44,183 nucleotides of DNA from Bacteroidales bacterium. Lineage in GTDB: Bacteria > Bacteroidota > Bacteroidia > Bacteroidales > UBA932. A model generated the notes under the pieces. It ran no database searches. It had not been told where the DNA came from and saw only the letters and a list, made by a program, of their open reading frames with translations. Both the position numbers and the translations under genes were made by a program. The stretch spans positions 1 to 44,183 of the forward strand of contig SUYX01000006.1 in NCBI GenBank assembly GCA_015060225.1, in the 5' to 3' direction. Position 1 is the stretch's first letter; every line of letters begins with the position of its first letter. Positions 28,789-44,183 of the stretch are shown in pieces.

Positions 28789-30027
28789 CTACTGGTTGTT
28801 TACTGTAACTGAAGAACCGTCGTTAAGTTCCTTGCTTATGGCATTGTAAGGCGCCGTTACTACTCTGGCGGATGTATCCAGTCCTTTTGTAACCTCAATA
28901 CAGTTCATATCCTGGATACCTGTCTCTACCCGGTGAGCTTTAACTTTTCCGCTCTGACTGTCATATATGAATACCTTCTGTATTACCCCATCATCTGTAT
29001 CCAATGAATCTGACATGACTTTTCTGGTGGTAATTGCCTGAAGAGGGATTTTGATTACCCCCTCCCTACGGGCTGTCTGTATTGAAACAGATGCACTCAT
29101 GCCGGGTCTCAGAGGTATATTCCCTTTCTCGAGGAGATCTTTGTAGGATTGGGGTAGTATATTTACCTTAACTTCAAAGTTTGTCACCTGGTCTGCTGCC
29201 ATGGTTGTACCGGAATTTTTGGAGGAGTTTGCTACCTGGGTAACAACACCCGCGAATCTTCTGTTGGGGTACGCATCAATCTCTATTGTGGCTGTATCAC
29301 CGGCGGACAATCTTATGATGTCAATCTCATTTACATCTACCAGCACCTCCATCCGGTTAAGGTCTGCAATTCTCAACATCTCCGTTCCAGCCATCTGGCT
29401 TGTACCTACAACACGCTCTCCAATCTCAACATTGAGTTTTGATATTGTACCGGTCATAGGGGCATATATGTTTGTCTTTACAAGATTCTCTTCAGCCTCC
29501 TTAAGGGATGCTTCTGCACTTCTTACATTGAATTCAGCCGCTTTCAACTGGCTCTTTGCAATGTCATATTCAGCTTGAGACTTCTCATAGTCAGCAAGTG
29601 AAATGGTACGTTTACCATAAAGTGAAACATTCCTTTTATGTGTGAGTTCAATTTGCCTGAATTGGGCCTCCTGCTGCAGGTACTGGGCCTTTATGGCATT
29701 CAGGGATGCCTCAGCCCTATCTCGGGCAGAGAGATACACATCCTGCTTTATCTGTATGATAAGGTCTCCTTTGGTGACAGCATCACCCTCCTGGAAGTTG
29801 AGCCTTATTATCTCCCCAGAGACATCGGGACTTATCTTTACCTCTGTTACAGGCTGTATTTTGCCATTTGCCGGGATGGTTTCCACTACAGTCCCAATCT
29901 GGGGTGAGGTAACTGTTACCCCAATCCCTTGGGGCCCCTTGTTGCGGCCTATGGCAATAAGCAGCACAATTATTGCTGCTGACGCTGTAAGGACTATCCT
30001 CTTTTTCTTATTCTTCTGTTTCAACAT
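28789..30027 (-). CDS. Periplasmic adaptor protein (HlyD/MacA/RND-type membrane fusion protein)
   Basis: The 412-residue protein has an N-terminal membrane anchor (IVLTASAAIIVLLIAIG, about 11-27). A lipoyl/biotinyl-like half motif, PANGKIQPVTEVKISPDVSGEI split over about 52-73, follows, then a long coiled-coil hairpin rich in Ala/Glu (about 95-180), the second lipoyl half APMTGTISKLNVEIGERV, and a beta-barrel and membrane-proximal end. This is the linker between an inner-membrane exporter and a TolC channel. The ATG at 30027 starts MLKQKNKKKR; it overlaps the tolC end by 20 bp. No RND pump or MacB gene lies beside it, so its inner-membrane partner could be the C39 ABC exporter upstream (inference) or a pump elsewhere. 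Confidence 0.9.
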   Translation of the reverse strand: MLKQKNKKKRIVLTASAAIIVLLIAIGRNKGPQGIGVTVTSPQIGTVVETIPANGKIQPVTEVKISPDVSGEIIRLNFQEGDAVTKGDLIIQIKQDVYLSARDRAEASLNAIKAQYLQQEAQFRQIELTHKRNVSLYGKRTISLADYEKSQAEYDIAKSQLKAAEFNVRSAEASLKEAEENLVKTNIYAPMTGTISKLNVEIGERVVGTSQMAGTEMLRIADLNRMEVLVDVNEIDIIRLSAGDTATIEIDAYPNRRFAGVVTQVANSSKNSGTTMAADQVTNFEVKVNILPQSYKDLLEKGNIPLRPGMSASVSIQTARREGVIKIPLQAITTRKVMSDSLDTDDGVIQKVFIYDSQSGKVKAHRVETGIQDMNCIEVTKGLDTSARVVTAPYNAISKELNDGSSVTVNNQ

Positions 30028-31336
30028 GGCCACTCTTGTAATATTCAATTATCTTCTGCTGGAAAATATATTGGTATTTGCTTTGTATATACTCGGATTC
30101 TGCCTTGAACAGATTTGTCTTGGCTGTAGAGTAATCTGTCCCATTCAGCAGCCCCAAGTCGAATTTTTCCGCCGTAAGGTTGAACGATTCCCTCGCGGCC
30201 TCCATATTCCTTTGTGATGCCTCCATTTTGCCATGGCATGCCAGTGCTTCATTCCATGCCAGCTGAATCTCCTTCATGAGTTCCTGGAGAGCTATTTCTA
30301 CACCAATCCTGGAACTCTCCACATTGTTTCTTGCATTTTTGATTGCAGTATTTGTACGTCTGTTGTTGAAGATTGGTATACTTAACCCAAAACCTACAGA
30401 AGGGTTGCGGTTGTTGTCAAACTGGGTCAGCAGAGGAGTGTCCTGATTGTCGCTGTAGTATGTGCCATACCCTGCATTAAGTGAGATTGTAGGGAGGGCA
30501 CTCCCTTTCTGTATTTTGTACTGTAGCTTGCTGTGTTCAAGCTCCAGTTCGGCTTTCCTTATCCTTGGAAGAGAGCTGGCATTTGCATATATTGTCTCCA
30601 GATCCTCATCCTTCAGCTCCAATGGGGCATTGTCAATGGCAGGGTCCTCAATTTCCAGCTTGATGTCAGGTGGAAGGTTCAGCAGTTGGTGAAGTTCCAG
30701 CAGTGCACTTCTATAGTTGTTGCGAGCCGTTACAAGCTGAAGGTTTTCATTGGCAAGCTGGGATTTCACCTCCAGAAGCGAGCCGTATGTCTGGCTTCCG
30801 GCATCTACCAGATTCTGGGTCCGTGCAACCTGGGCCTCTGCATTTTTATAGCTTTCCAGGGCACATTCCTCCATTTCACGGCAAAGCAGTACCTGCAAAT
30901 ATCCTTTTGCAATTGCAATGGAGATATTGTCCATAAGGTTTTCTATATTGGCCCGGGCAATTTCCAGCTGTTTTGCACTGCTTTTAATATTGTTCTGTTT
31001 CCTCATGCCCTCAAAAAGTGGGAGTGAAGAGGAGAGGTTTACGGATGAACTCTGGGACAGCTTGTTTTCCACTATCTCAAGATCGTTGAGGTTTACAGAA
31101 CGGCCCCAGCTCATATTGTACCCCATAGAGGCATTCAATGTGGGGAAAAACTCAAGCCTGGCAGCCTTGAGATTATTGGCTGCCTGCTCTTGAGAAAGAG
31201 CCATCTGCTTTATCTGCAAGTTGTTCTCCTGTGCATACCTGATGCACTGCTGCAGAGACCATCTCTGTTGCGCCATAGCCTCATTGCAAAAGATGACAGC
31301 CATGCATAATGTGAGTATTCTGTAAAATAATGCCAT
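30008..31336 (-). CDS. TolC-family outer-membrane efflux channel protein
   Basis: The 442-residue protein has a signal peptide (MALFYRILTLCMAVIFCNEAMA split before QQR) and two repeats of the TolC helical domain. Markers are RWSLQQCIRYAQENNLQIKQ at the mature N terminus, AARLEFFPTLNASMGY, the second-repeat SALPTISLNAGYGTYYSD, SVGFGLSIPIF, and the helical NLTAEKFDLGLLNGTDYSTAK near the end. It would form a trimeric channel across the outer membrane. The ATG at 31336 is chosen, as the 13 upstream in-frame codons lie over the promoter. It has its own -7 box and lies downstream of a terminator that follows the two peptide genes. Confidence 0.93.
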   Translation of the reverse strand: MALFYRILTLCMAVIFCNEAMAQQRWSLQQCIRYAQENNLQIKQMALSQEQAANNLKAARLEFFPTLNASMGYNMSWGRSVNLNDLEIVENKLSQSSSVNLSSSLPLFEGMRKQNNIKSSAKQLEIARANIENLMDNISIAIAKGYLQVLLCREMEECALESYKNAEAQVARTQNLVDAGSQTYGSLLEVKSQLANENLQLVTARNNYRSALLELHQLLNLPPDIKLEIEDPAIDNAPLELKDEDLETIYANASSLPRIRKAELELEHSKLQYKIQKGSALPTISLNAGYGTYYSDNQDTPLLTQFDNNRNPSVGFGLSIPIFNNRRTNTAIKNARNNVESSRIGVEIALQELMKEIQLAWNEALACHGKMEASQRNMEAARESFNLTAEKFDLGLLNGTDYSTAKTNLFKAESEYIQSKYQYIFQQKIIEYYKSGHVETEE

Positions 31337-31352
31337 ATTCCCAACTTCATTG

Positions 31353-31360
31353 CAAATATA
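31353..31360 (-). promoter_or_regulatory. -7 promoter box for the tolC-hlyD-tsaB operon
   Basis: On the minus strand TATATTTG matches TAnnTTTG exactly, 16 bp before the tolC ATG. I see no good -33 element at 19-21 bp, so support is from the -7 box and from its place after a terminator. Confidence 0.5.
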
Positions 31361-31397
31361 AAAAAATATGGGCAATTAGTTTATCTTGTGTCAAAGA

Positions 31398-31423
31398 AGG
31401 GGGACTGAAGCTGTAGTCCCCCT
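31398..31423 (-). terminator. Hairpin terminator after the two peptide genes
   Basis: AGGGGGACT (31398-31406) pairs perfectly with AGTCCCCCT (31415-31423) around an 8-nt loop. On the minus strand it is followed by TCTTTGA, and it starts 13 bp beyond the stop of the second peptide gene. It separates the exporter-peptide genes from the tolC promoter. Confidence 0.8.
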
Positions 31424-31436
31424 CACAAAACACACC

Positions 31437-31616
31437 CTAATTCACCAGGGCGGCAGGACTGGTCATAAGTTTGCGGAATCTGTTTATCATATATATTGCT
31501 TTTGCAATACTTCCTACCAGTTCAGCAATAAACTCCACAAGCTGGGCAGTCTCCTTGTTCTTGCCTCCATAAATTTCAGATGCACAAACAGTGCCAATTT
31601 CTACGAATGATTTCAT
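31437..31616 (-). CDS. Candidate secreted peptide precursor 1 with double-glycine leader (59 residues)
   Basis: This 59-codon gene runs from ATG 31616 to TAG 31437. The leader is MKSFVEIGTVCASEIYGG, with Gly at -2/-1, Ile at -4, Ile at -12 and Phe at -15. It is a looser match to the C39 peptidase consensus, lacking Leu at -7 and Glu at -8. Cleavage after GG would release 41 residues starting KNKETAQLVEF, with a hydrophobic helix-like stretch FIAELVGSIAKAIYMI that has small-x3-small spacing, then a basic NRFRKL and the end SPAALVN. Net charge is about +3. It follows peptide 2 after 13 bp and precedes a terminator. It could be a bacteriocin subunit or a signal; no homologue is recognised. Confidence 0.72.
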   Translation of the reverse strand: MKSFVEIGTVCASEIYGGKNKETAQLVEFIAELVGSIAKAIYMINRFRKLMTSPAALVN

Positions 31617-31629
31617 AACCGTTGCATTT

Positions 31630-31806
31630 TTAAAAATTGTTCCATCCCTTTTTAAATCCTCTGATAATCTCCATATGATACTCCTTTATGAAGTTGAAGA
31701 TTTTTCGGAAGCATTCTCCCAAATTGAATTCATAGGCAGTAGCCACTCCTCCGGTTACAAACTGCAATTCTTTTGCACAACAATCTGTAAATTCTCTCTC
31801 TTTCAT
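31630..31806 (-). CDS. Candidate secreted peptide precursor 2 with canonical double-glycine leader (58 residues)
   Basis: A 58-codon gene runs from ATG 31806 to TAA 31630, 58 bp after the C39 ABC exporter stop on the same strand. Its leader ends in KELQFVTGG. Counting back from the cut, Gly -1, Gly -2, Val -4, Leu -7, Glu -8 and Phe -15 match the double-glycine leader consensus read by C39 peptidases. The core would be 38 residues, VATAYEFNLGECF onward, with one cysteine, many aromatics and a basic amphipathic C-terminal part (RGFKKGWNNF). Net charge is about +2. Two cysteines also occur in the leader. The leader pattern together with the adjacent cognate-type exporter makes this a strong precursor candidate. 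Bacteriocin or pheromone function is inferred. Confidence 0.82.
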   Translation of the reverse strand: MKEREFTDCCAKELQFVTGGVATAYEFNLGECFRKIFNFIKEYHMEIIRGFKKGWNNF

Positions 31807-31864
31807 AATAAAATCATTTAATCCCTACCGATCAGTGCTGCGTAGGTTACCACTTTGAGTCAAC

Positions 31865-33994
31865 TCAATTTATTGTAACAACGTTGTCTGTCAATATCCT
31901 GTTTTCCCTTTTGTGGGATATGTATATTATGGTCTTTCCCTCACTCTTGAGAAAGTTTATGCATCCGGCAACACACTCTTCACCTTCAGCAGTCATAGAA
32001 GATGTAGCTTCATCAAATATGTATATTCGGGCATCTCTGTACATTGCCCGTGCTATACAGATTTTCTGGCATTCTCCTCCCGACAATCCCCTTCCACTGT
32101 TCCCGACAGGGGTGAGAAGTCCTTGGGGAAATCTCTTCAGCATTTCATCCATATCCAGTCGGGTGCATATTCCCATGATACGTCCTATATCAGGCTGCAC
32201 TTCCCCCAATGCAATGTTTTCCAATATGCTTCCCTCCATGAGAATGGGATGCTGTCCGACATATCCTATCATATCTCTCCACTTTTTGCCGTTGAACTGC
32301 ATTATATTTATGCTCCCATAATATATTTCCCCTCCTTGAGGAGAAAAATCCCTCATTATAAGATGCAGAAGAGTGCTTTTCCCACTTCCGTTATCGCCAT
32401 CTATCCGTGTAATCTCCCCTTTCTTTATTCTGGCTGAGAATCCGTTGAACAGAGATGCCCTCCCAGGATATTTGAAGTGGAGGTCATTGATAAGGATATC
32501 CCCTTCCAACTCTATTGGAGAAAGTGTTCCTTCATCTTCATCGGCTTCCTGCAGTGACAATATCTCAAATATCCTCTCATATGCTACTTTTGCCCTTGCA
32601 ATAGTATCACTGGCTCCAATAAGGTCATTTACAGGTATTGTGAAGAATGAGCAAAGAGAGTAAAAGCCTACAAGTTCTCCCAAAGTGATTTCACCATGCA
32701 GCACTGCAAATGAGCCTGCAGAGAGGATTATCCATACAAGCAGTTTGGATACCCCTTCCAGTACGGTTTCCAGTGCGTTTACCGCCCTGGCTGAACCTTG
32801 GAGCTTCTCGGCAAGGATAATCTGCTTCCTCCCTATCTTTTCTGCTGCAAACTCTCCGCAGTTATAGTGTCTGATGGCAGATGCCATTGGAATTGAGCTG
32901 AGCATCGCACTCTCCAGACCGGCATTGGCGGTTGCCACCTCTTTCCCATATTTTGTGTTTATCCGTCCGGATACTCTGTATATTACCCAATATAACGGTA
33001 TAAACAATGCAATTATGGTGGCAAGCCGGCTGTTGTAAAGGAACATGGCTCCCAAAGCACCGGCGAGTGTGATGAGACTGGTGACTATACCTATAACCCC
33101 TCCGGTAATGAATGAACGTATAAGGTGTATGTCGTCTCTCCTTGACGAGATGTCGCCTGATGTGTAATTGTCAAAAAAAGCCAGGGGCAGGCGGAATAGT
33201 TTGTGTACATATGAAGCTGTGAGAGAGCATTCAGTACAGATGCTGCATTTTATAAGGTACTGCGATGCCCTGTAACCTGCGTAAAGTGATGCCAGCATGA
33301 GGAATGCGGCAACAAGGGATACTGCAATCAGGGAAACTGTATCCCCTTGAGGGAGGATCCTGTCAATAATCTGTTGCAGCAGAAGTGTTGTTCCTATGGC
33401 AGCCCCTGTGCAAAATGCAGTTGCGGCAAGGGTAAGGAGAAGTTCTTTAAGGTTTCCCATGATAATGGGCTTGAGCGATTCCCATCTGCCGGTATGGGTT
33501 TTTCCCCGTTTCAATCCGGTATCAGGCGAAAGGGTAATGATGTATCCGGTCCATTTCTTTTCAAAATCTACCTTATATATCTTTTCAATTTTTCCGGTGG
33601 CAGGATCCATTATTTTCATCCACCTGCCACCGCAGCTGTAGATTACAATATAATGAAGGTAATCACCGTCATCCTTGATGTGTGCTATAGCCGGTAATGC
33701 AATTGTATTTATCCCTTCAATGGACTTCCCTTTACTCAGGAGCCCTTTTGCCCTCAGTCCCATTTGTGCGGCACCATCTATTATGCCTTGTATGGATATC
33801 CCGTCGGGAGTACAGCCGCACAGCATGCGTATATGTGCGAGTGAGTGGTATATTCCGTAGAATGCAGCTACTGATGCAAGGCAGGCTGCACCACAGTCAT
33901 ATTTGTAGTGCTGCTTAATCTTTATTTTTCCCGGAAGAAGTGCCCATTGGGGAAATTCTTCCATTTGTGCAATTGCTGATGATAATAGTGCCAT
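31865..33994 (-). CDS. Peptidase-containing ABC transporter (C39 peptidase, membrane and ATPase domains)
   Basis: The 709-residue protein has three parts. Residues 1 to about 145 are a C39 peptidase with QHYKYDCGAACLAS (Gln28, Cys34), DYLHYIVIY (His114) and IMDPATG (Asp130), a complete catalytic set. About 180-450 is a six-helix exporter domain including FFDNYTSGDISSR. About 480-709 is the ATPase, with Walker A GDNGSGKSTLL, signature LSGGE, Walker B IYIFDEATSS and the H-loop ISHKRE. Such exporters cut the leader after a double glycine while pumping the peptide out. Two GG-leader peptide genes lie directly downstream. An internal ATG at residue 11 (33964) is an alternative start. Inverted repeat TTGAGT/ACTCAA (31855-31868) overlaps the stop codon. 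Confidence 0.95.
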   Translation of the reverse strand: MALLSSAIAQMEEFPQWALLPGKIKIKQHYKYDCGAACLASVAAFYGIYHSLAHIRMLCGCTPDGISIQGIIDGAAQMGLRAKGLLSKGKSIEGINTIALPAIAHIKDDGDYLHYIVIYSCGGRWMKIMDPATGKIEKIYKVDFEKKWTGYIITLSPDTGLKRGKTHTGRWESLKPIIMGNLKELLLTLAATAFCTGAAIGTTLLLQQIIDRILPQGDTVSLIAVSLVAAFLMLASLYAGYRASQYLIKCSICTECSLTASYVHKLFRLPLAFFDNYTSGDISSRRDDIHLIRSFITGGVIGIVTSLITLAGALGAMFLYNSRLATIIALFIPLYWVIYRVSGRINTKYGKEVATANAGLESAMLSSIPMASAIRHYNCGEFAAEKIGRKQIILAEKLQGSARAVNALETVLEGVSKLLVWIILSAGSFAVLHGEITLGELVGFYSLCSFFTIPVNDLIGASDTIARAKVAYERIFEILSLQEADEDEGTLSPIELEGDILINDLHFKYPGRASLFNGFSARIKKGEITRIDGDNGSGKSTLLHLIMRDFSPQGGEIYYGSINIMQFNGKKWRDMIGYVGQHPILMEGSILENIALGEVQPDIGRIMGICTRLDMDEMLKRFPQGLLTPVGNSGRGLSGGECQKICIARAMYRDARIYIFDEATSSMTAEGEECVAGCINFLKSEGKTIIYISHKRENRILTDNVVTIN

Positions 33995-34074
33995 ACCAAT
34001 ACCTTTTCTGCAAAATTGGAAAGGTAAAAGCTATTTTCCCAGCACTTGCGTAAAATTTATCCCGATAATTTTTT

Positions 34075-34575
34075 TTAAGAAAACATATTATGCAAAAAAG
34101 GGAAAAATTCCTTGGCGAAAGTGGCCAGGAGTCCATATCCTTTGGAATTGTCAAGAAAATCCTGAGGAATGATATGGAACATTCCATTCAGCCAGTTTAC
34201 GGCATAAACGGCTACACTTAGAACTACTATTGCCTTCATTGCACCGAACAGCAATCCCAAAATACGGTTCAGCCATCCAAGCATGCTCAATTTTACCAGA
34301 CCCTCAATCAATTTCCCCAGGAAGTGTGCAAGAACAAGGACCGCAATGAATATTACAGCAAACATTATTATGTGCAGGGTCTGTTGTGACATTTCCAGAT
34401 GAAGCCACTCTTTTGCCAGAGATGAAAGGTAACCTGTAAACTTGCCTGCACACCACATCCCAAGAATAAGTGCGGCAATGCTTGCAAGTTGTCTTACAAA
34501 ACCTTTGAAAATACCCATTACTGCTGATGCAGCTATAACTACAAGGATGATGATGTCCAATATTCCTATGTTCAT
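34075..34575 (-). CDS. cvpA: CvpA family membrane protein
   Basis: The 166-residue protein has four predicted membrane helices: IGILDIIILVVIAASAVMGI with the family GFVRQLASI after it, ALILGMWCAGKF, IIMFAVIFIAVLVLAHFLG, and GLLFGAMKAIVVLSVAVYAV. This pattern is the CvpA (colicin V production) fold, in which a GFxRGxxxE/A loop follows the first helix. CvpA was named for its need in colicin V production in E. coli, and homologues are now linked to envelope homeostasis. It is 80 bp upstream of the C39 exporter on the same strand and may be cotranscribed with it. The neighbourhood is suggestive, but cvpA is widespread without exporters. Confidence 0.88.
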   Translation of the reverse strand: MNIGILDIIILVVIAASAVMGIFKGFVRQLASIAALILGMWCAGKFTGYLSSLAKEWLHLEMSQQTLHIIMFAVIFIAVLVLAHFLGKLIEGLVKLSMLGWLNRILGLLFGAMKAIVVLSVAVYAVNWLNGMFHIIPQDFLDNSKGYGLLATFAKEFFPFLHNMFS

Positions 34576-34592
34576 AACATGCTAAATTTTCC

Positions 34593-34625
34593 CAAAAATA
34601 GGACAATTTGTATTATCTTTGCAAA
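34593..34625 (-). promoter_or_regulatory. Divergent promoters: cvpA (-33/-7) overlapping the ileS -7 box
   Basis: On the minus strand TTTG (34625-34622), a 21-bp spacer and TATTTTTG (34600-34593) make a full Bacteroidota promoter for cvpA. On the plus strand TATCTTTG at 34614-34621 is the -7 box for ileS, inside the cvpA spacer. Polymerases on the two promoters could not bind together. Confidence 0.6.
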
Positions 34626-34649: not shown

Positions 34650-37600
34650 ATGGGTTTTGCAGAATATAAAAATCTGGATTTAGTAGAGATAAATCGCAGT
34701 GTGCTGGATAAATGGAAAGCAGAGAAATGCTTTGAAAATACCCTTAAGGCAAGGGAAGGAGCTAAGAAATATATATTTTTTGAGGGACCGCCTTCGGCAA
34801 ACGGAATGCCGGGCATCCACCATGTGATGGCAAGGGCAATCAAGGATGCTTTCTGCCGTTTCAAGACGCAGAGCGGTTATCTTGTGCAGAGAAAGGCTGG
34901 TTGGGATACTCATGGCCTTCCTGTAGAACTTGGTGTGGAGAAGATGTTGGGTATAACCAAGGAAGATATCGGGAAGAAGATTTCAGTTGACGACTATAAC
35001 AGCGCCTGCCGCAAGGAGGTGATGAAATATACAAAGGAGTGGGTTTCACTTACCGAGAGGATAGGTTATTGGGTGGATATGGACAACCCTTACATTACCT
35101 ATGACAACAAGTATATTGAGACTTTGTGGCATCTATTGAAGGACATTTATGGTAAAGGGCTGTTGTATAAAGGTTATACAATCCAACCTTATTCTCCTGC
35201 TGCCGGTACCGGTTTGAGTTCGCACGAGCTTAATCAGCCGGGTTGCTACAGGGATGTGAAGGATACTACAGTTGTGGGGCAGTTCAAGATAAAGAATCCT
35301 AAAGCAGAGATGGCCCGGTGGGGTACACCTTATTTCCTTGCGTGGACAACTACCCCTTGGACACTCCCTTCAAATGTGGCACTTTGTGTGGGTCCCAAGA
35401 TTGATTATGTGGCTGTTCAGACTTACAATGCATATACAGGTGAGAAGATGACAGCGGTTCTTGCAAAGAGCCTGCTTTACGCTCACTTCAACAGGAAGGC
35501 AGAGGAACTGGCACTGGAGGATTACAAACCTGGAGACAAACTTGTTCCATTTAAGGTGGTTGCAGAGTACAAGGGGCCTGAACTTGTAGGTATGGAGTAT
35601 GAGCAACTGATTCCTTGGGTAAAACCTGTCTCCGTAGATGAGAAAGGTAAATGGAGCGATGCTTCCCAGAAGGCTTTCCGCATTATTCCTGGAGATTATG
35701 TAACAACAGAGGACGGTACAGGTATTGTGCATATTGCCCCTACTTTTGGTGCTGATGATGCTTTTGTGGCAAAGGCTGCAGGTATCCCTTCACTGTTTAT
35801 GATAAACAAGAGCGGTGAGACCCGCCCTATGGTTGACCTTACCGGCAAGTTCTACATGATGGATGAACTTGATGAGGAGTTTGTAAAACAGTGTGTGGAT
35901 GTTGAACTCTATAAGGAGTACGAGGGAAAATGGGTTAAGAATGCATATGATCCGCAGTTCACTGTGAATAAAGTATATGACGAGAAGGCTGCTGCCGCTG
36001 CTGAGACATTGGATGTTGTAATCTGTCTTATGATGAAGGGTGCCAACAAGGCATTCAAGATAGAGAAACATACCCACAACTATCCTCATTGCTGGAGAAC
36101 CGACAAACCGGTGTTGTATTATCCGTTGGATTCATGGTTCATAAGGACCACAGCCGTACAGGATGAACTTATTGCTTTGAACAAAACCATCAATTGGAAA
36201 CCTGAGAGTACAGGTACGGGACGTTTCGGCAAATGGCTTGAGAACCTTCAGGACTGGAACCTCTCACGCAGCCGTTATTGGGGTACACCACTCCCTATCT
36301 GGAGAACAGAAGACAAGAAGGAGGAGATGTGCATAGGCTCTGCAGGGGAACTTTACAACGAACTTGAGAAATCTGTTGCAGCAGGTTTTATGGCCTCAAA
36401 CCCATTGAAGGATAAAGGGTTTGTTCCAGGAGATTTCTCAAAGGAGAACTATGAAAAGATAGATCTTCACAGACCATATGTGGATGGGTACATTCTTGTA
36501 TCCCCAAGCGGTCAGCCAATGAAGAGGGAGCTTGATCTTATTGATGTATGGTTTGATTCAGGTGCAATGCCTTTTGCTCAGGAGGGGTTGGAGAATCTTG
36601 GAAAACCTCAGTTCGGCCAGACAGCAGATTTCATTGCAGAGGGTGTTGACCAGACACGCGGATGGTTCTTTACCCTTCATGCAATATCTACAATGGTGAA
36701 TAAAAAGGTTGCATACAAGACAGTGCTTTCAAACGGCCTTGTACTTGATAAGGTTGGAAACAAGATGAGCAAGCGCCTTGGCAATGCAGTTGATCCGTTC
36801 AAGGCTCTGGATGAGTACGGTGCCGACTCTTTGAGATGGTACATGCTTACCAATGCACAGCCTTGGGATAACCTGAAGTTTGATTTTGCAGGTGTGGATG
36901 AGGTTAAGAGAAAATTCTTCGGGACATTGTACAATACATACTCATTCTTTGCATTGTATTCGAATGTTGACGGGTTTGATAATAAGGCTCCACAGGTGCC
37001 TGTAGAGAACCGTCCGGAGATTGACCGCTGGATCATTTCATATCTCAACAGCCTCATTAAGGATGTGAAGGCTTGCTATGAGGATTATGATGTTACAACT
37101 GCCGGTAGAAAGATTCAGGATTTTGTATGTGACCACTTGAGCAACTGGTATGTACGCTTGAACAGAAAACGTTTTTGGGGCGGTTCAATGACAGAGGACA
37201 AACTGGCCGCTTACCAGACATTGTACTCTTGCCTTGAGACTGTGGCAATTCTTGCGGCACCGATTGCGCCGTTCTTTATGGAGAGGTTGTTCCTGGATTT
37301 GAATGCAGTATCAGGAATGCATCCTGAGAACTCCGTTCATCTGGTACTTATGCCGGAGGTTGAGGAGAAATATATAGATAAGGATCTTGAGGAGAGGATG
37401 GCTTTGGCTCAGTTGAGTTCTTCCATGATTCTTGCCTTGAGAAGAAAGGTGAACATTAAGGTAAGGCAGCCTCTTGCAAAGATAATAATTCCGGTTCTTG
37501 ACCCTAAAATTCAGGAGCAGTTTGAGAAGGTTAAAAATCTTGTGCTTGGTGAGGTTAACGTTAAGGAGGTTGAATTCATTACCAATACAGAGGGATTGAT

Positions 37601-38132
37601 TACAAAGAAAATTAAACCTAATTTCAAGACTCTTGGAAAGAAATATGGCAAGATGATGAAGGATATTGCAGCTGCATTCGCACAATTTTCACAGAGTGAC
37701 ATTACTCAAATAGAGATGTCTGATGCTTATAAGTTTGCATTGCCTGCAGGTGAGGTTATCCTTGAGAAAGAGGATTACGAGATTACATCAGAGGATATGC
37801 CGGGCTGGCTGGTTGCAACCGAGGGCAAACTTACCGTTGCCATGGATATCACAATTACAGATTCTTTGAGAAAGGAGGGTGTTGCCCGTGAACTTGTTAA
37901 CAGAATACAGAATTTGAGAAAGAGCAAGGATTTTGAGGTGACAGACAAGATTGAGGTTAAGATTGAGGAGAGGGAAGATATTGCGGAGTCATTGCAGGAA
38001 TTCTCTGATTATGTCTGTGGACAGACATTGTGCGGGGGTATAGAACTGGTTGGCAAGTTGGAGAGTGCAGATGAAATTGAATGGGCAGATGATGAGGTAT
38101 TGCGCATATCAATAAAGTTGTTAAATTTGTGA
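34650..38132 (+). CDS. ileS: Isoleucyl-tRNA synthetase
   Basis: The 1160-residue protein has the class I synthetase layout. The HIGH-type motif is GIHH (55-58) within GPPSANGMPGIHHVMARAIKD, followed by GWDTHGLPVE. The editing CP1 domain (about 190-420) has AWTTTPWTLPSNVAL. The catalytic core includes SRSRYWGTPLPIW, VDQTRGWFFTLH and KMSKRLG (KMSKR at 705-709). The anticodon-binding helical part and a C-terminal domain with MKDIAAAF and MDITI complete it. It lacks an obvious C-terminal zinc-binding cysteine cluster, as in the eukaryote-like branch of bacterial IleS. It charges tRNA-Ile. It probably leads an operon with the DksA-like gene and lspA. Confidence 0.97.
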   Translation: MGFAEYKNLDLVEINRSVLDKWKAEKCFENTLKAREGAKKYIFFEGPPSANGMPGIHHVMARAIKDAFCRFKTQSGYLVQRKAGWDTHGLPVELGVEKMLGITKEDIGKKISVDDYNSACRKEVMKYTKEWVSLTERIGYWVDMDNPYITYDNKYIETLWHLLKDIYGKGLLYKGYTIQPYSPAAGTGLSSHELNQPGCYRDVKDTTVVGQFKIKNPKAEMARWGTPYFLAWTTTPWTLPSNVALCVGPKIDYVAVQTYNAYTGEKMTAVLAKSLLYAHFNRKAEELALEDYKPGDKLVPFKVVAEYKGPELVGMEYEQLIPWVKPVSVDEKGKWSDASQKAFRIIPGDYVTTEDGTGIVHIAPTFGADDAFVAKAAGIPSLFMINKSGETRPMVDLTGKFYMMDELDEEFVKQCVDVELYKEYEGKWVKNAYDPQFTVNKVYDEKAAAAAETLDVVICLMMKGANKAFKIEKHTHNYPHCWRTDKPVLYYPLDSWFIRTTAVQDELIALNKTINWKPESTGTGRFGKWLENLQDWNLSRSRYWGTPLPIWRTEDKKEEMCIGSAGELYNELEKSVAAGFMASNPLKDKGFVPGDFSKENYEKIDLHRPYVDGYILVSPSGQPMKRELDLIDVWFDSGAMPFAQEGLENLGKPQFGQTADFIAEGVDQTRGWFFTLHAISTMVNKKVAYKTVLSNGLVLDKVGNKMSKRLGNAVDPFKALDEYGADSLRWYMLTNAQPWDNLKFDFAGVDEVKRKFFGTLYNTYSFFALYSNVDGFDNKAPQVPVENRPEIDRWIISYLNSLIKDVKACYEDYDVTTAGRKIQDFVCDHLSNWYVRLNRKRFWGGSMTEDKLAAYQTLYSCLETVAILAAPIAPFFMERLFLDLNAVSGMHPENSVHLVLMPEVEEKYIDKDLEERMALAQLSSSMILALRRKVNIKVRQPLAKIIIPVLDPKIQEQFEKVKNLVLGEVNVKEVEFITNTEGLITKKIKPNFKTLGKKYGKMMKDIAAAFAQFSQSDITQIEMSDAYKFALPAGEVILEKEDYEITSEDMPGWLVATEGKLTVAMDITITDSLRKEGVARELVNRIQNLRKSKDFEVTDKIEVKIEEREDIAESLQEFSDYVCGQTLCGGIELVGKLESADEIEWADDEVLRISIKLLNL

Positions 38133-40011: not shown

Positions 40012-40096
40012 GGAGAGGTGGCAGAGTGGTCGATTGCGGCGGTCTTGAAAACCGTTGATCTGAGAGGATCCGGGGGTTCGAATCCCTCCCTCTCCG
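40012..40096 (+). tRNA. tRNA-Ser (anticodon UGA)
   Basis: The 85-nt sequence folds as a class II tRNA. The acceptor stem GGAGAGG pairs with CCTCTCC at the end, the anticodon loop is CTTGAAA (anticodon TGA, for UCA codons), a long variable arm follows, and the T arm contains GGTTCGAATCC. No CCA is encoded. It has its own promoter and a downstream hairpin. An integrase gene begins 120 bp after it, so its 3' end is the likely attachment site of the neighbouring mobile element. Confidence 0.95.
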
Positions 40097-40108
40097 CTAA
40101 TAAAAGAT

Positions 40109-40141
40109 AAACCCTTGTAAATAATAAGTTTACGAGGGTTT
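40109..40141 (+). terminator. Hairpin terminator after tRNA-Ser
   Basis: AAACCCTTGTAAA (40109-40121) pairs with TTTACGAGGGTTT (40129-40141) with one mismatch and a 7-nt loop. It lies between the tRNA and the integrase gene. Confidence 0.75.
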
Positions 40142-40215
40142 GTTGCATATACCGGGACAGAGTTGGGACACTAAATGTTCACTTAAGGTTTCTGCTTAAG
40201 ATGCCTTAAAAAAAA

Positions 40216-41382
40216 ATGTCTGTACGTCAAAAAAATGCCTCCTTGATGCAATATAGAGAGGCTGCTTATCATGAGGGCAAAGAGTGTTTCGTTTACTACT
40301 ATGCCATTGATCCGTCTGTAAAAGATCTGAGACGGAAGAAAATCAAATTAAACCATATCAAGAGTCTCAAGGATAGACGAGCCGCAGCGAACAGAATAAT
40401 TAAAACCATTAATAAGAAACTTGCTGCAGGCTGGAGTCCATTTGTTGAGATAGGAGCAGAGAAATGCTATGAATATACATGGGATGCCTTGGATAAGTAT
40501 CTCAAGTATATGAGTAAGGAGGCTGAGGAGCACAGTATGAGAAGTTACAGGAGTTTTGTTAAGAAAATCAAGGAACTGCTGCTTAAGCATAACTTCTCTG
40601 ATAAAATGCAAATGATAGAATTTACACCTGGAGTGGCATCTTTGATAATGGAGGAACTGCGGGAGCAGCAGAATATATCATTGCGTACCTGGAACAATTA
40701 CTTGAGTATGTATATATCCATTTTCAATTGGATGATTGAGCATAATTATTCCAACACCAATCCATTTACCCATATCAAGAAAGTACCACGCAAGAAACTC
40801 AAGAAAACCAGAAGGCCTCTAACTGCAGAAGAGTGTTTGCAACTTGAAAGATTTCTTGTTGACAATGGGCATTTGAACTATCTTGCCATGTGTTATCTGT
40901 GTTATTACTGCTGTATTCGCCCTAATGAGATATCCTTACTAAAGGTGAAAGATATATCCCTGGAGGAACAATCTGTGTATGTGTCAGAGGAAATTGCCAA
41001 GAATGACAATAATAGTGTAAGGATTATTCCTGATGTAGCAATGTGGGTTTTTAAGGAACTGGACCTCTCGGCGAATAAGGATTTCTATCTTTTTGGGTTT
41101 GACAAGGAGAAGACATTTGCTCCAGGGCCACGCAGGGCAGAGGGGAGGGAGATTGCCCGCTTCTGGAAAGATGTTGTAAGACCTAATCTGGGATGGGGGA
41201 TGGACCTCCAATTCTACTCCCTTAAGGATACAGGTATTACCCAACTTCTTGAGGATGGTGTTGCCCCTAACTATGTGCAGGGGCAAGCAGACCATTCATC
41301 TTTAGCGATAACTAGTATATATGCCAGTAAGGTTAATAAGGAGGCGAAAGCACAACTCAAGAAATTGCCAAAGGCGTTTTAA
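40216..41382 (+). CDS. Tyrosine-type site-specific integrase, tRNA-Ser-proximal
   Basis: This 388-residue recombinase has an N-terminal core-binding region (about 80-190; WNNYLSMYISIFNWMIEHN) and a C-terminal catalytic domain. Catalytic residues include Arg235 (CCIRPNEISLLK), His360 (QADHSS) and the nucleophile Tyr369 (ITSIYA). The usual H-x-x-R-H-T box is replaced by YSLKDTGIT, with Lys337 where Arg is expected and Tyr where the first His is. I recall that KDTG in this position also occurs in some Bacteroidota integrases, so it may be normal for that branch. It lies next to tRNA-Ser and is convergent with the spanin gene (4-bp overlap). It probably catalyses integration of the element. Confidence 0.9.
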   Translation: MSVRQKNASLMQYREAAYHEGKECFVYYYAIDPSVKDLRRKKIKLNHIKSLKDRRAAANRIIKTINKKLAAGWSPFVEIGAEKCYEYTWDALDKYLKYMSKEAEEHSMRSYRSFVKKIKELLLKHNFSDKMQMIEFTPGVASLIMEELREQQNISLRTWNNYLSMYISIFNWMIEHNYSNTNPFTHIKKVPRKKLKKTRRPLTAEECLQLERFLVDNGHLNYLAMCYLCYYCCIRPNEISLLKVKDISLEEQSVYVSEEIAKNDNNSVRIIPDVAMWVFKELDLSANKDFYLFGFDKEKTFAPGPRRAEGREIARFWKDVVRPNLGWGMDLQFYSLKDTGITQLLEDGVAPNYVQGQADHSSLAITSIYASKVNKEAKAQLKKLPKAF

Positions 41383-41843
41383 TTTCTCTTGAATTTGTAA
41401 ATAATATAGGCAATCAATATCAAAGCTATGATCCCCTTGATGTGTTTGATACCTCTAATTGCTGGAGGTTCTTCATATTTGTCCGTCGTTGCTATTATAG
41501 AACTATCGGTTGACACTTCTTGGTGAATCTGCTGTTGTTCCTGGATCTCATCCTTTTTGAGTTCAACGGTATTTTCTTGCCTGGTGTCTCGCTCAATTTC
41601 CATGATATAATCAATTGCCTGATTGCCGGAACTGTCGGGAGGGGAATACTTGGTCACCTTTATCCTTGAGTTGTCTTCTATCTTTTGGATTTCCTTCTGC
41701 AGATCCTTAATTGTTATGACTGTATTAAGGGAGTCCAAGGCGGTCATGGCAATGTCAAGTTGTTGTCTCTGGGCTTGTGTCTTAAGGGTGGCTGCACAAC
41801 TACTGCACAGCAACAATATTATAAGTAAAAGGCTTCTTTGCAT
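41379..41843 (-). CDS. Probable unimolecular spanin (lipoprotein with C-terminal membrane helix)
   Basis: The 154-residue protein opens MQRSLLLIILLLCSSCAAT, a lipoprotein signal with Cys16 as the likely lipidated residue. A periplasmic middle, rich in Gln, Glu and Lys with coiled-coil character, follows (LDIAMTALDSLNTVITIKDL to EQQQIHQEV). At the C terminus IKGIIALILIAYIIYKF is a membrane helix followed by basic KRN. A lipid anchor at one end and an inner-membrane helix at the other is the design of a unimolecular spanin, which links and fuses the outer and inner membranes in the last step of phage lysis. The gene directly follows the endolysin (25-bp overlap). No family recognised by name; the call rests on architecture and context. 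Confidence 0.7.
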   Translation of the reverse strand: MQRSLLLIILLLCSSCAATLKTQAQRQQLDIAMTALDSLNTVITIKDLQKEIQKIEDNSRIKVTKYSPPDSSGNQAIDYIMEIERDTRQENTVELKKDEIQEQQQIHQEVSTDSSIIATTDKYEEPPAIRGIKHIKGIIALILIAYIIYKFKRN

Positions 41844-42349
41844 TGTCTATAAAAGTATTCTCTGTCAGCAAGGCCATTATAACCTCCGTTAATTCTTTTT
41901 GTGATTTTGAGAAATTGGCCGGTGTCTGCAAGGCTATTGAGCCCTCTTGATTGCCAATACCAACAAGCGGACATTACGGCATATTCAGGTTGGCTCAACA
42001 GTTCCGGATTTGAGATGAAATCTATACCTGTGGCGGCAGCCAGTTGGGAATAGTTGTATCTTCCTGTCAACTGTATCAACCCCCGGCCTTTATACCTGCA
42101 GCCATCTCCAGGTTGTGTGTTCCCTAAATCCAATCTTCCTTCGTATGCAGCTCCGGATGCGATTTCCTCAGTATAACGGAAACAACCGCTTTCATGAGCC
42201 ACCTGGGATAGAAATGCAGCCAGCCTTTCGCTTGTGTTAATCCGGTACTCCCTGGTGTATTTTTTTAGAGGCTCAATGAAGGGTGCAATTGTATCTTCAG
42301 TAACTGATAGTATTCTTGTCAGTAACCCAGTTGTGATTTCATTTCTCAT
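41819..42349 (-). CDS. GH19 endolysin (chitinase-like muramidase)
   Basis: The 176-residue protein has the GH19 lysozyme-like fold. It contains LAAFLSQVAHESGCFRYTEE with the catalytic Glu in the HES motif, then YEGRLDLGNTQPGDGCRYKGRGLIQLTGRYNYS split over about 72-103, and KRINGGYNGLADREYF near the end. GH19 enzymes of this size in phages cut the peptidoglycan backbone. It has no signal peptide, so a holin would be needed for release. It overlaps the holin gene by 11 bp and the spanin gene by 25 bp, a tight lysis module. Confidence 0.92.
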   Translation of the reverse strand: MRNEITTGLLTRILSVTEDTIAPFIEPLKKYTREYRINTSERLAAFLSQVAHESGCFRYTEEIASGAAYEGRLDLGNTQPGDGCRYKGRGLIQLTGRYNYSQLAAATGIDFISNPELLSQPEYAVMSACWYWQSRGLNSLADTGQFLKITKRINGGYNGLADREYFYRQCKEAFYL

Positions 42350-42827
42350 CGGTTTTACTTTGTTTTTCGTTCATGATGTCAGAAAGCAAATCTCCCATTT
42401 TCTCGGATTGGGCAGCTTTGCCCCTAATCAGTTTTACAAGTTTTGTAAAAAAAGGATGTTCGGTGATAATGAACATATTTTCCAGAACACTGATAACTTC
42501 AACCAGGAAAATGAATCCAGCAATAATCTTATAGGTGCATATCCAGTCATGAATACCAACCTGACATTCAAATTCCCAAAATAGGTATAAGAGACCAAAA
42601 TAGCATAAAGCTTTAGATAAACTCCGTCTCAGGCGTTTACTTGAGCGGGGTATATGCTGTTTTGCTGAGGCTGCTATTCCAGTTATAAAATCGGCTGCCA
42701 AAAGGAGAAACATAAGCCAGAAAACTCCTTTGAGCGGGGCCATGTATGCAAATGCTGCCGCAATCCAACCATTAACAGTTCCGGCTGCAGATATGATATG
42801 CTTACCAACTTTTACGAAATTATCCAT
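42339..42827 (-). CDS. Phage holin family protein
   Basis: The 162-residue protein has three to four membrane helices. MDNFVKVGKHIISAAGTVNGWIA is the start, GVFWLMFLLLAADFITGIAAS the second helix with the conserved DxxTG motif of phage_holin_4 type proteins, and CYFGLLYLFWEFECQ and IIAGFIFLVEVISVLENMF follow. A soluble basic tail ends in DIMNEKQSKTDEK. It would form pores that trigger lysis. The ATG at 42827 is used; the 26 upstream codons overlap the intergenic inverted repeat and are unlikely to be translated. It precedes the endolysin with an 11-bp overlap. Confidence 0.88.
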   Translation of the reverse strand: MDNFVKVGKHIISAAGTVNGWIAAAFAYMAPLKGVFWLMFLLLAADFITGIAASAKQHIPRSSKRLRRSLSKALCYFGLLYLFWEFECQVGIHDWICTYKIIAGFIFLVEVISVLENMFIITEHPFFTKLVKLIRGKAAQSEKMGDLLSDIMNEKQSKTDEK

Positions 42828-42880
42828 ATCCCAAAAGTATAGACTAAGAATCCAAAACCGAAGGACACAAGTAGACTCCA

Positions 42881-42913
42881 GGTAGATTGTATTTATTCTA
42901 CCCAAAATCTACC
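42881..42913. repeat. Inverted repeat between second integrase and holin genes
   Basis: GGTAGATT (42881-42888) and AATCTACC (42906-42913) are an exact 8-bp inverted pair with a 17-nt centre. It lies in the 89-bp gap, ending 4 bp before the integrase stop. It may be a weak terminator for the integrase or a recombination crossover site. Confidence 0.45.
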
Positions 42914-42916
42914 ACA

Positions 42917-44095
42917 TCAATTATTACCTTGGTTTTTGCCCCGCTTTTTAGCCACCTTTTTGAGATCATTTATGATGGTTTCGGCCATAACTTCGGAATA
43001 TATCTGAGTAGTTGAAATCTTTGTGTGGCCAAGTAATTTTTGAACAGTCGTTATTGGGACACCCTGGTGGCAAAGTATGGTGGCACATGTATGCCTGGCG
43101 GTGTGGAATGTTGTCCTGGTGCTGATTTTTGCTTTCTTTTGAAGTATAGAGAGACGTTTATTCGTATCGCTATTACAACCAATGCGGGCAAAGCTTTTAA
43201 CAGATGAATAATTCTTCAGCAGGTTTATTGCCTTTCCCTCAAATAACAGTGATATCGGTATCTTGAGCTGGTAATGCGTTTTCTGCGTCAGAAGTTCCAG
43301 CCAAGTAGTGCCATTACTGCAGGTGATATTGTCATCTGTTAGCCGGATGAAGTCGGAATATCTCAAACCGGTATAGCAGCAGAACAGGAACGCATCCCGT
43401 ACATGGGCAAGCCGGCCCTTGGCTTTTACGGCTTCCATTCTCTTGAGCTCGGCAGGAGATAGGAATCTGTGCTGCGTCTTTTCATGTATGATTTTATAGT
43501 TGCGAAATGGGTTCTTATCCATCGGGATATACCCGGCTGATATGGCTTCATTGATTAGTGTGCGGAGGTTTCTTAAATGCTTGGCTGCAGTGTTGGTGGC
43601 AGCACCTCTTCCCTTCATCCAAACGTCAAATTCTTTGACAAAGGTGTAAGTCAGATCATCCCAGCAATATCGTGGCCGGTACTCAGCCAAAGCCTTGACG
43701 GTGGTGAGCAGATTGCTTTTTGTGCTGCTGGTTCTGTTGGATGCCCGGATGATGTTCCGGCAGAAGGCTTCAAAGGTGATATCGGGAGAACACTCCGCGC
43801 GGAGTGCTTCCCTGATGAGCGTGAGTGTAGGGGATATTCCCCTCTTCCAGAGCCCCAGTTCAATGCTCTCCAGCCGGATGATGTATTCGTATATCATTGC
43901 ATTCAGTGCTTCAGCATTAGGATGATTGATGATGCTTTGGGTTCGTTTATCCCATTGCCCTGGGGTGATATATATGTTACTTGAGATATACATTTTGCGC
44001 TGCTGAAGTAACAGTTCAATCTGGATCAGCGCTGCACCCCGGCTGTTGAGTTGGTGCTTTCGGTTGTGGACCAGACGGTATTTAATTTTTTGCAT
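42917..44095 (-). CDS. Tyrosine-type recombinase (integrase) with Arm-type N-terminal domain
   Basis: The 392-residue protein has an N-terminal Arm DNA-binding region (QIELLLQQRKMYISSNIYITPGQW split over about 26-48), a SAM-like core-binding region (about 105-200), and a C-terminal phage integrase domain. Catalytic residues are Arg in TGLRYSDFI, the HTARHTCA box with His and Arg, His in LLGHTKIS, and nucleophile Tyr366 in TTQIYSE. This set is complete, unlike that of the integrase next to the tRNA. This architecture is typical of integrases of Bacteroidota conjugative or mobilisable elements and phages. It is upstream of holin, endolysin and spanin on the same strand. A strong hairpin lies 50 bp upstream of its start. 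Confidence 0.94.
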   Translation of the reverse strand: MQKIKYRLVHNRKHQLNSRGAALIQIELLLQQRKMYISSNIYITPGQWDKRTQSIINHPNAEALNAMIYEYIIRLESIELGLWKRGISPTLTLIREALRAECSPDITFEAFCRNIIRASNRTSSTKSNLLTTVKALAEYRPRYCWDDLTYTFVKEFDVWMKGRGAATNTAAKHLRNLRTLINEAISAGYIPMDKNPFRNYKIIHEKTQHRFLSPAELKRMEAVKAKGRLAHVRDAFLFCCYTGLRYSDFIRLTDDNITCSNGTTWLELLTQKTHYQLKIPISLLFEGKAINLLKNYSSVKSFARIGCNSDTNKRLSILQKKAKISTRTTFHTARHTCATILCHQGVPITTVQKLLGHTKISTTQIYSEVMAETIINDLKKVAKKRGKNQGNN

Positions 44096-44144
44096 GAGAT
44101 TTTGAATAAGGATTTTCTTATTAAAAATAATGGGTGATTTTTTG

Positions 44145-44172
44145 AAATAAGCACGCTTGAGCGTGCTTATTT
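44145..44172. terminator. Perfect hairpin near the window end
   Basis: AAATAAGCACGC (44145-44156) pairs exactly with GCGTGCTTATTT (44161-44172) around the loop TTGA. It is probably a bidirectional terminator belonging to a gene right of the window, or insulating the integrase promoter. A smaller dyad, AATAAG/CTTATT, lies at 44105-44122. Confidence 0.75.
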
Positions 44173-44183
44173 GGTGGTGGCAG

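Follow-up and report, generated by a model that had tools for sequence, protein, structure and literature searches.

A Conserved Pair of Double-Glycine Leader Peptides behind a C39 Exporter and a Covarying Pseudoknot RNA in a Family of Bacteroidales

The stretch of DNA analysed here (the window) comprises 44,183 nucleotides (nt) of contig SUYX01000006.1 from a Bacteroidales bacterium (assembly GCA_015060225.1), and its minus strand carries a C39 peptidase ATP-binding cassette (ABC) exporter followed directly by two small genes, P1 and P2, whose products have double-glycine (GG) leaders. Comparison with related genomes indicates that the exporter, P1 and P2 are an inherited unit, kept at one chromosomal place in many genera of one family under purifying selection, and that a pseudoknot RNA stands ahead of P1. 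By analogy with class IIb two-peptide bacteriocins, the C39 domain would remove the leaders, the cores would be exported, and the cores would pair as helices at the membrane; the probability of this reading is put at roughly one half.

Two-peptide GG systems are known mainly from Gram-positive bacteria, where they serve as accessory weapons. Here, a Bacteroidales family inherits such a system as part of its gene set, the peptides match no curated family above cut-off in the model searches made, and with dozens of natural peptide pairs available the two-peptide idea can be tested directly in this order.

The Exporter and the Two Peptide Genes

The exporter (709 amino acids; 31865..33994, minus strand) contains C39, ABC membrane and ABC ATPase domains according to Pfam, and among solved structures ComA and PCAT1-type transporters are nearest to it in sequence. 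A first-pass annotation, made from the window alone, had described a full C39 catalytic set, and Gln28, Cys34, His114 and Asp130 are indeed all present; the protein therefore has both the domains and the residues of a peptidase-containing ABC transporter. Across the genus, His and Asp are conserved at 35/35 loci and Gln and Cys at 34/35, the odd one out being L070, whose exporter match starts only at residue 106, and all four residues are found in 23/23 exporters from other genera. This exporter is the sole C39 match within the source genome (86% complete), and a genome-contig scan with the exporter gave four distant ABC transporters. A second, distant C39-type exporter (26–27% identity) was observed in five genomes of the genus (L071–L075), with no P1/P2 match there.

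P1 (31630..31806, minus strand) lies 58 nt behind the exporter and encodes 58 amino acids with GG at residues 19–20, giving a leader of 20 and a core of 38 residues. P2 (31437..31616, minus strand) follows after 13 nt and encodes 59 amino acids with GG at residues 17–18, giving a leader of 18 and a core of 41 residues. The exporter, both short genes, their spacers and the hairpin with a 9-bp stem behind them had been placed exactly in the first-pass annotation, as re-reading of the coordinates established. The leader residues that it ascribed to the second peptide were misplaced: Val-4, Leu-7, Glu-8 and Phe-15 belong to the 58-residue P1, and the leader of the 59-residue P2 has Ile-4, Ala-7, Cys-8 and Phe-15. 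Irregular leaders occur in P2 of L117 (AGG) and P1 of L134 (AGAGG), and the P1 leader of L069 was reset by hand, the automatic GG placement being too late.

Same-genus relatives were chosen by the exporter alone, the peptides playing no part in the picking, and an exporter orthologue was present in 34 of the 36 other genomes of the genus; the two without it are G001, in which the contig edge lies at tsaB, and G009, in which it was lost. Recurrence of small GG-leader open reading frames (ORFs) beside the exporter in relatives had been proposed as a check, and both P1 and P2 do follow it in 34/34 same-genus loci. P1 and P2 are also adjacent in 23/23 loci from other genera, of which 22 were located via P1 and one (L118) via P2; because the loci were located with that peptide, the presence of the search peptide in them is not independent evidence. 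The substitution pattern is not that of non-coding DNA, the ratio of nonsynonymous to synonymous substitution rates (dN/dS) of P1/P2 being 0.02–0.27 and mostly near 0.1 in 11 pairs of relatives, with two exceptions, namely a value of 0.76 in a pair whose dS is just 0.07 and a pair in which dS is saturated. Within the clade of six that includes the window, conservation is 0.52 in the core versus 0.44 in the leader for P1, and 0.65 versus 0.48 for P2.

Short ORFs arise by chance, and P1 and P2 might in principle be such ORFs or an artefact; the 34/34 recurrence, the dN/dS values and the invariant motifs described below contradict this, and it can be regarded as extremely improbable. Judged by their conservation, both are genuine genes. 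Upstream of the start codons, GGAGG occurs within 20 nt of P2 in 21/35 genus loci and of P1 in 0/35, and P2 of the window is without it; classical Shine-Dalgarno sequences are reportedly missing from Bacteroidetes mRNAs, as a passage of PMC7366714 states.

Distribution and Inheritance

A P1 profile built from the genus matched 142/299 family genomes at E up to 0.1, 131 of them at E up to 2.4e-5. A wider P2 profile matched 166/299 family genomes (E up to 0.01) in 12/25 genera, including 37/39 genomes of the window's genus and only two weak matches in g217. At the inspected loci of other genera, the exporter, P1, P2 and tsaB stand in that order in 23/23, with tolC and a gene for a periplasmic adaptor (membrane fusion protein, MFP) in between in 20/23; tsaB is downstream in 31/34 genus loci and not within the stretch at L042, L045 and L054. 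From eighteen genomes in which P1 was unmatched (and, in some, P2 as well), 16 tsaB loci were read: one of these (L168) carries a divergent exporter, P1 and P2, and the exporter was not seen at the other 15/16, several of these contigs being short. Taken together by comparison, the exporter, P1 and P2 are an inherited unit at one chromosomal place.

Spread beyond the family was considered and rejected: 393 genomes of the order gave five outside matches, all taken as chance, namely four for P2 (E 0.005–0.01, all within frames of 355–722 codons) and one for P1 (E 0.007). Mobile spread was likewise set aside, the P2 of the window being unmatched in plasmid and phage collections, which were searched with P2 and not with P1.

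Mean pairwise distances are 0.59 for the exporter, 0.64 for P1, 0.66 for P2, 0.60 for CvpA, 0.42 for TsaB, 0.36 for MFP and 0.22 for IleS. The distances of P1 and P2 track those of the exporter (r 0.91 and 0.88), and those of the exporter, P1, P2, TolC and MFP intercorrelate at r 0.84–0.94; because IleS correlates almost equally (0.81–0.89), these values reflect common descent more than partnership.

A fixed inherited locus in many genera, low dN/dS and the lack of an immunity gene would also suit secreted or periplasmic helical peptides whose target is the envelope of the producer itself, or the host, and since tolC and MFP are not always alongside, delivery may stop in the periplasm. Such a role is nevertheless rather unlikely: the clean loss in G009 indicates that the system is not essential, and few proteins of the locus have diverged as far as the exporter, P1 and P2, although CvpA is equally divergent.

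Motifs and Predicted Helices of the Peptide Cores

The pairing of cores proposed in the class IIb-like reading is suggested by their motifs. The P1 cores were compared in alignment A4, which consists of the window, 20 of the 34 other genus loci, the 23 loci from other genera and L168, and the P2 cores in alignment A5, which is A4 minus L131 and L139. A GxxxG-type motif occupies fixed columns in 45/45 rows of P1 (GxxxG in 44, GxxxA in 1) and in 43/43 rows of P2 (GxxxG in 27, AxxxG in 16), and by pattern only it is present in 35/35 P1 and 35/35 P2 of the genus loci. In shuffled cores, exact GxxxG appeared in a mean of 10/45 for P1 (maximum 18) and 9/43 for P2 (maximum 16). AlphaFold predicted one long helix in each peptide, over residues 21–52 in P2 (mean predicted local distance difference test score, pLDDT, 80.5) and over residues 29–57 in P1. 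Moreover, amphipathicity exceeded that of shuffles (z > 1) in 44/45 P1 and 35/43 P2 cores.

No curated family matched P1 or P2 of the window above its cut-off. Below the cut-offs, a lactococcin G-beta/enterocin 1071B model matched 2/45 P1 members weakly (E 0.019), and single members matched ComC (E 3.1e-5) and BlpC (E 4.4e-4), both for P1, and Bacteriocin_IIc (E 0.06).

The ComC and BlpC matches bear on the possibility that P1 and P2 are signals, that is, pheromones which are exported and then sensed by a receptor encoded at another place in the genome, which would also agree with family-wide conservation, purifying selection and the lack of an immunity gene. However, each of these matches concerns one member and may reflect the leader, there are two peptides per locus, and the cores, at 38 and 41 amino acids, are predicted to form long amphipathic helices that carry packing motifs; in addition, no kinase or receptor gene lies next to the exporter, P1 or P2 in the window. 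The signalling half of the first-pass reading survives as a possibility of low probability. Because the locus is inherited at one site across the family, signalling, own-envelope and host roles are all still serious rivals of the class IIb-like reading.

A Pseudoknot RNA ahead of P1

The element (31824..31854, minus strand) ends 17 nt 5' of the P1 start and can be folded as an H-type pseudoknot, in which stem S1 pairs 31854-31851 with 31837-31834 and stem S2 pairs 31846-31842 with 31828-31824. Across 55 loci (L120, L122 and L123 excluded), its layout is S1 of 4–6 bp, a loop of 1–5 nt, S2 of 5–7 bp, 0–4 nt, S1', 3–8 nt, S2', and 14–29 nt to P1. A brute-force search placed the best pseudoknot in the 80 nt 5' of P1 at this position in 55/58 loci, and 27/2320 dinucleotide shuffles reached the observed score. 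For the window alone the fold is weak and not significant, its score being reached by 4/40 shuffles, and at least one of 40 shuffles reached the score in 14/58 loci.

Alignment A3 comprises 57 of 58 rows (53 distinct; L120 dropped), in segments cut with the fold already known, a choice that biases toward pairing; 86.6% of its cells pair, compensatory changes occur in 9/10 pairs, and covariation scores 0.476, compared with 0.165 for shuffles (0/500 as high) and a maximum of 0.123 when the fold was slid. Because these segments were fold-guided, two further tests were made. The first was a strict descriptor with the S1 letters of the genus and loop ranges set after the loci of other genera had been inspected, which matched at the expected place in 14/23 of those loci, missed 9, and had no other match in 814,810 bases, both strands counted. 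The second was a covariance model (R2), built from 21 of the 35 genus segments, which gave 18 matches across the 23 other-genus loci: its 8 strongest (E up to 0.052) all lie before P1, and the remaining ones include L120, matched elsewhere (E 0.058), and L123 and L139, matched before P1 (E above 1), so that in total 10/23 loci were recovered and 8 matches fell elsewhere. L168, which lies outside the training set, was matched by a genus-trained covariance model 17 nt 5' of the P1 start (E 5.1e-6), and the best E in loci without the exporter was 0.33. Moreover, in a search of 41 genomes with model R1, the element was found at this locus in 22/25 genus genomes (missing in G001, G005 and G009), and the strongest match at any other place had E 0.065. 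The fold was not found in L120, and the folds of L122 and L123, fitted by eye, were later matched by the strict descriptor.

Rfam gave no match in window positions 31300-34100 (E up to 5) or in 20 related loci (E up to 1). The comparison thus makes a strong case for a conserved, structured RNA with clear covariation and no Rfam entry. From its place alone, its most likely role would be to set the translation or stability of the peptide part apart from that of the exporter.

A palindrome (31855..31868, minus strand; 6-nt arms around a 2-nt centre) lies at the exporter stop and abuts the 5' side of the pseudoknot. It was considered and rejected as a universal operator, arms of at least 5 nt being present in only 25/58 loci and the observed arm being reached by shuffles in 1685/5800 cases. 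In some loci (L052, L053, L058 and others), the exporter frame crosses the pseudoknot region and stops just 5' of P1, and the element can therefore also be coding. The palindrome that precedes the element in many loci and the crossing frame in some species could suggest that the element works as a DNA site, or belongs to the end of the exporter's coding sequence, and is not an RNA, but two interleaved stems that covary in 9/10 pairs would be unexpected for a simple palindrome or a coding sequence, and this explanation is very unlikely. Degenerate tandem repeats were also observed in the exporter-to-P1 spacer of L049, ahead of the pseudoknot.

Comparison with Known Peptide Systems

Class IIb loci have adjacent genes, GG leaders and a C39 exporter, and an immunity gene is usual in them. 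The P1/P2 locus is like those of the plantaricin S and lactococcin G type in its two adjacent small genes, GG leaders and intact C39 exporter. According to passages of PMC6382864, GxxxG-type motifs occurred in every class IIb bacteriocin characterised by 2019 and are needed for activity, and the pairs, which have helical cores with such a motif in both peptides, are thought to pair as helices at the membrane; P1 and P2 likewise both carry the motif, and their helices are predicted. Unlike class IIb systems, P1 and P2 occur in a Gram-negative host, at one inherited locus across a family, with a pseudoknot RNA before the first peptide, without an immunity gene in the window and without a match above the cut-off of a curated model. 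Class IIb membership is not claimed, because an immunity gene is lacking in the window, no curated class IIb model matches above cut-off, and the peptides are known from sequence only.

On the class IIb-like reading, cvpA, the exporter, P1 and P2 would be transcribed as one unit, with the pseudoknot RNA setting peptide output apart from exporter output; the C39 domain would cleave both precursors after GG, and the ABC part would export the cores, probably onward via the neighbouring MFP and TolC. The amphipathic helical cores would then pack together through their GxxxG-type motifs at the membrane, and the system would act in the manner of a class IIb two-peptide bacteriocin, with competing bacteria as its probable target.

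Several observations weigh against this reading. Ordinary membrane helices often contain GxxxG, the looser small-xxx-small pattern of P2 (43/43 versus a shuffled mean of 36) is not unusual, the P1 helix is predicted with modest confidence (mean pLDDT 71.9), and the cores of some members are net acidic. Matches to bacteriocin models are few and all below cut-offs. The IleS distances correlate with those of the exporter at r 0.83. The adaptor is of the RND/MacA-like type, and tolC/MFP are absent beside the exporter in 3/23 loci of other genera and elsewhere occur without it. In addition, inheritance at a fixed site throughout a family sets the locus apart from most bacteriocins. Finally, the first-pass annotation had seen no obvious immunity gene, and the window's P1/P2 locus in fact leaves no room for one, with 80 nt between cvpA and the exporter and 100 nt between P2 and the tolC ATG, other loci not having been searched systematically.

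Of the earlier proposal of a two-peptide bacteriocin or signalling locus, the two-peptide design is upheld by the adjacent genes, the GxxxG-type motifs and the predicted helices, whereas a typical bacteriocin locus is not what was found, given the inherited unit and the missing immunity gene. Tentatively, and with less confidence than in the class IIb-like reading, the locus may be an inherited two-peptide membrane-acting system behind a new class of pseudoknot RNA, neither a classical bacteriocin (no immunity gene, mobile spread not seen) nor a classical pheromone, which could give the cell a permanent means of contact with neighbours, or one that serves its own envelope.

Bacteroidetocins are also without immunity proteins, according to a part of PMC6671954, and P1 and P2 may for that reason still be toxins. 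Bacteroidetocins are single peptides with at least two cysteines and have a five-transmembrane protein, and mostly a thiol oxidoreductase, alongside. P1 and P2, in contrast, are two peptides with 0–2 cysteines per core (P1 0–2, with 2 in two of 45; P2 0–1) and have CvpA, TolC, MFP, TsaB and IleS as neighbours; at least two core cysteines are thus not the rule, and neither a five-transmembrane protein nor a thiol oxidoreductase lies beside the exporter in the window.

Colicin V is one microcin accompanied by an immunity protein. The present locus differs in encoding two peptides and an MFP of the RND/MacA-like type, and in tolC/MFP, which appear to be on a transcript of their own. A C39 exporter with MFP and TolC, described for colicin V and class II microcin export in a part of PMC10352776, is common to both, and here the three would function jointly. 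As for the RNA, the Downstream-peptide RNA (RF01704), in a passage of PMC2864571, is likewise a structured RNA ahead of short ORFs; unlike the P1 element, which has no Rfam match, it is cyanobacterial and marine. Among the matches listed for open-literature titles and abstract openings, a scope outside which preprints and most subscription papers lie, no description of the exporter/P1/P2/RNA system was found.

Transcription Units and Neighbouring Genes

The gene order is ileS/cvpA, exporter, P1, P2, tolC/MFP and tsaB. In the window, the CvpA family membrane protein (34075..34575, minus strand) is the upstream neighbour and probably the first gene of the operon, with a TAnnTTTG promoter-like site 5' of it (34593..34600, minus strand); TAnnTTTG is the Bacteroidetes -7 motif, as given in a passage of PMC7366714. 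Behind P2 lie a terminator-like hairpin (31398..31423, minus strand; perfect 9-bp stem 31423-31415 with 31406-31398, loop 8) and a second TAnnTTTG site (31353..31360, minus strand) 5' of tolC. The TolC-like outer-membrane protein (30008..31336, minus strand) has a probable ATG start within an ORF from 31375, and the RND/MacA-like adaptor is encoded at 28789..30048 (minus strand).

The gene cvpA is directly upstream of the exporter in 51/58 loci, and TAnnTTTG lies within 145 nt 5' of cvpA in 48 of these 51, a count without a shuffle control. The motif stands 5' of the exporter in 3/58 loci, and a promoter for P1 was considered and rejected, the motif being 5' of P1 in only 1/58. Within 170 nt 3' of P2 it occurs in 44/58 loci, against 0.08 expected from single-base shuffles, and a hairpin of -8 kcal/mol or better lies 3' of P2 in 47/58 loci (again without a shuffle control). 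From these promoter-site and hairpin counts, cvpA, the exporter, P1 and P2 probably form one transcript, and tolC and MFP another. Neither this apparent separation of tolC/MFP nor the pseudoknot had been noticed in the first-pass annotation. In G009, the exporter, P1, P2 and the RNA element are all gone, and cvpA and tolC are 137 nt apart with a hairpin between them.

The possibility that cvpA is a dedicated part of the system was rejected; because the exporter is absent from the ileS-cvpA-tsaB neighbourhoods at L161 and L172, cvpA is probably a long-standing neighbour lending its promoter. The genes tolC and MFP were likewise rejected as dedicated partners, being present without the exporter at L158 and L162–L165 and missing at L124, L131 and L137.

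Between the window and G024 (L037), IleS (window 34650-38132) is 97% identical with a dS of 0.50, while the dS of MFP is 1.98 and those of P1, P2, TolC and TsaB are saturated; ileS may possibly have been exchanged between species. Farther along, window 40012-44183 is probably an integrated element: it contains a tRNA-Ser gene followed by ORFs named by eye as integrase-like (40216-41382), lysozyme/chitinase-like (41819-42349), holin-like (42339-42905) and again integrase-like (42917-44095).

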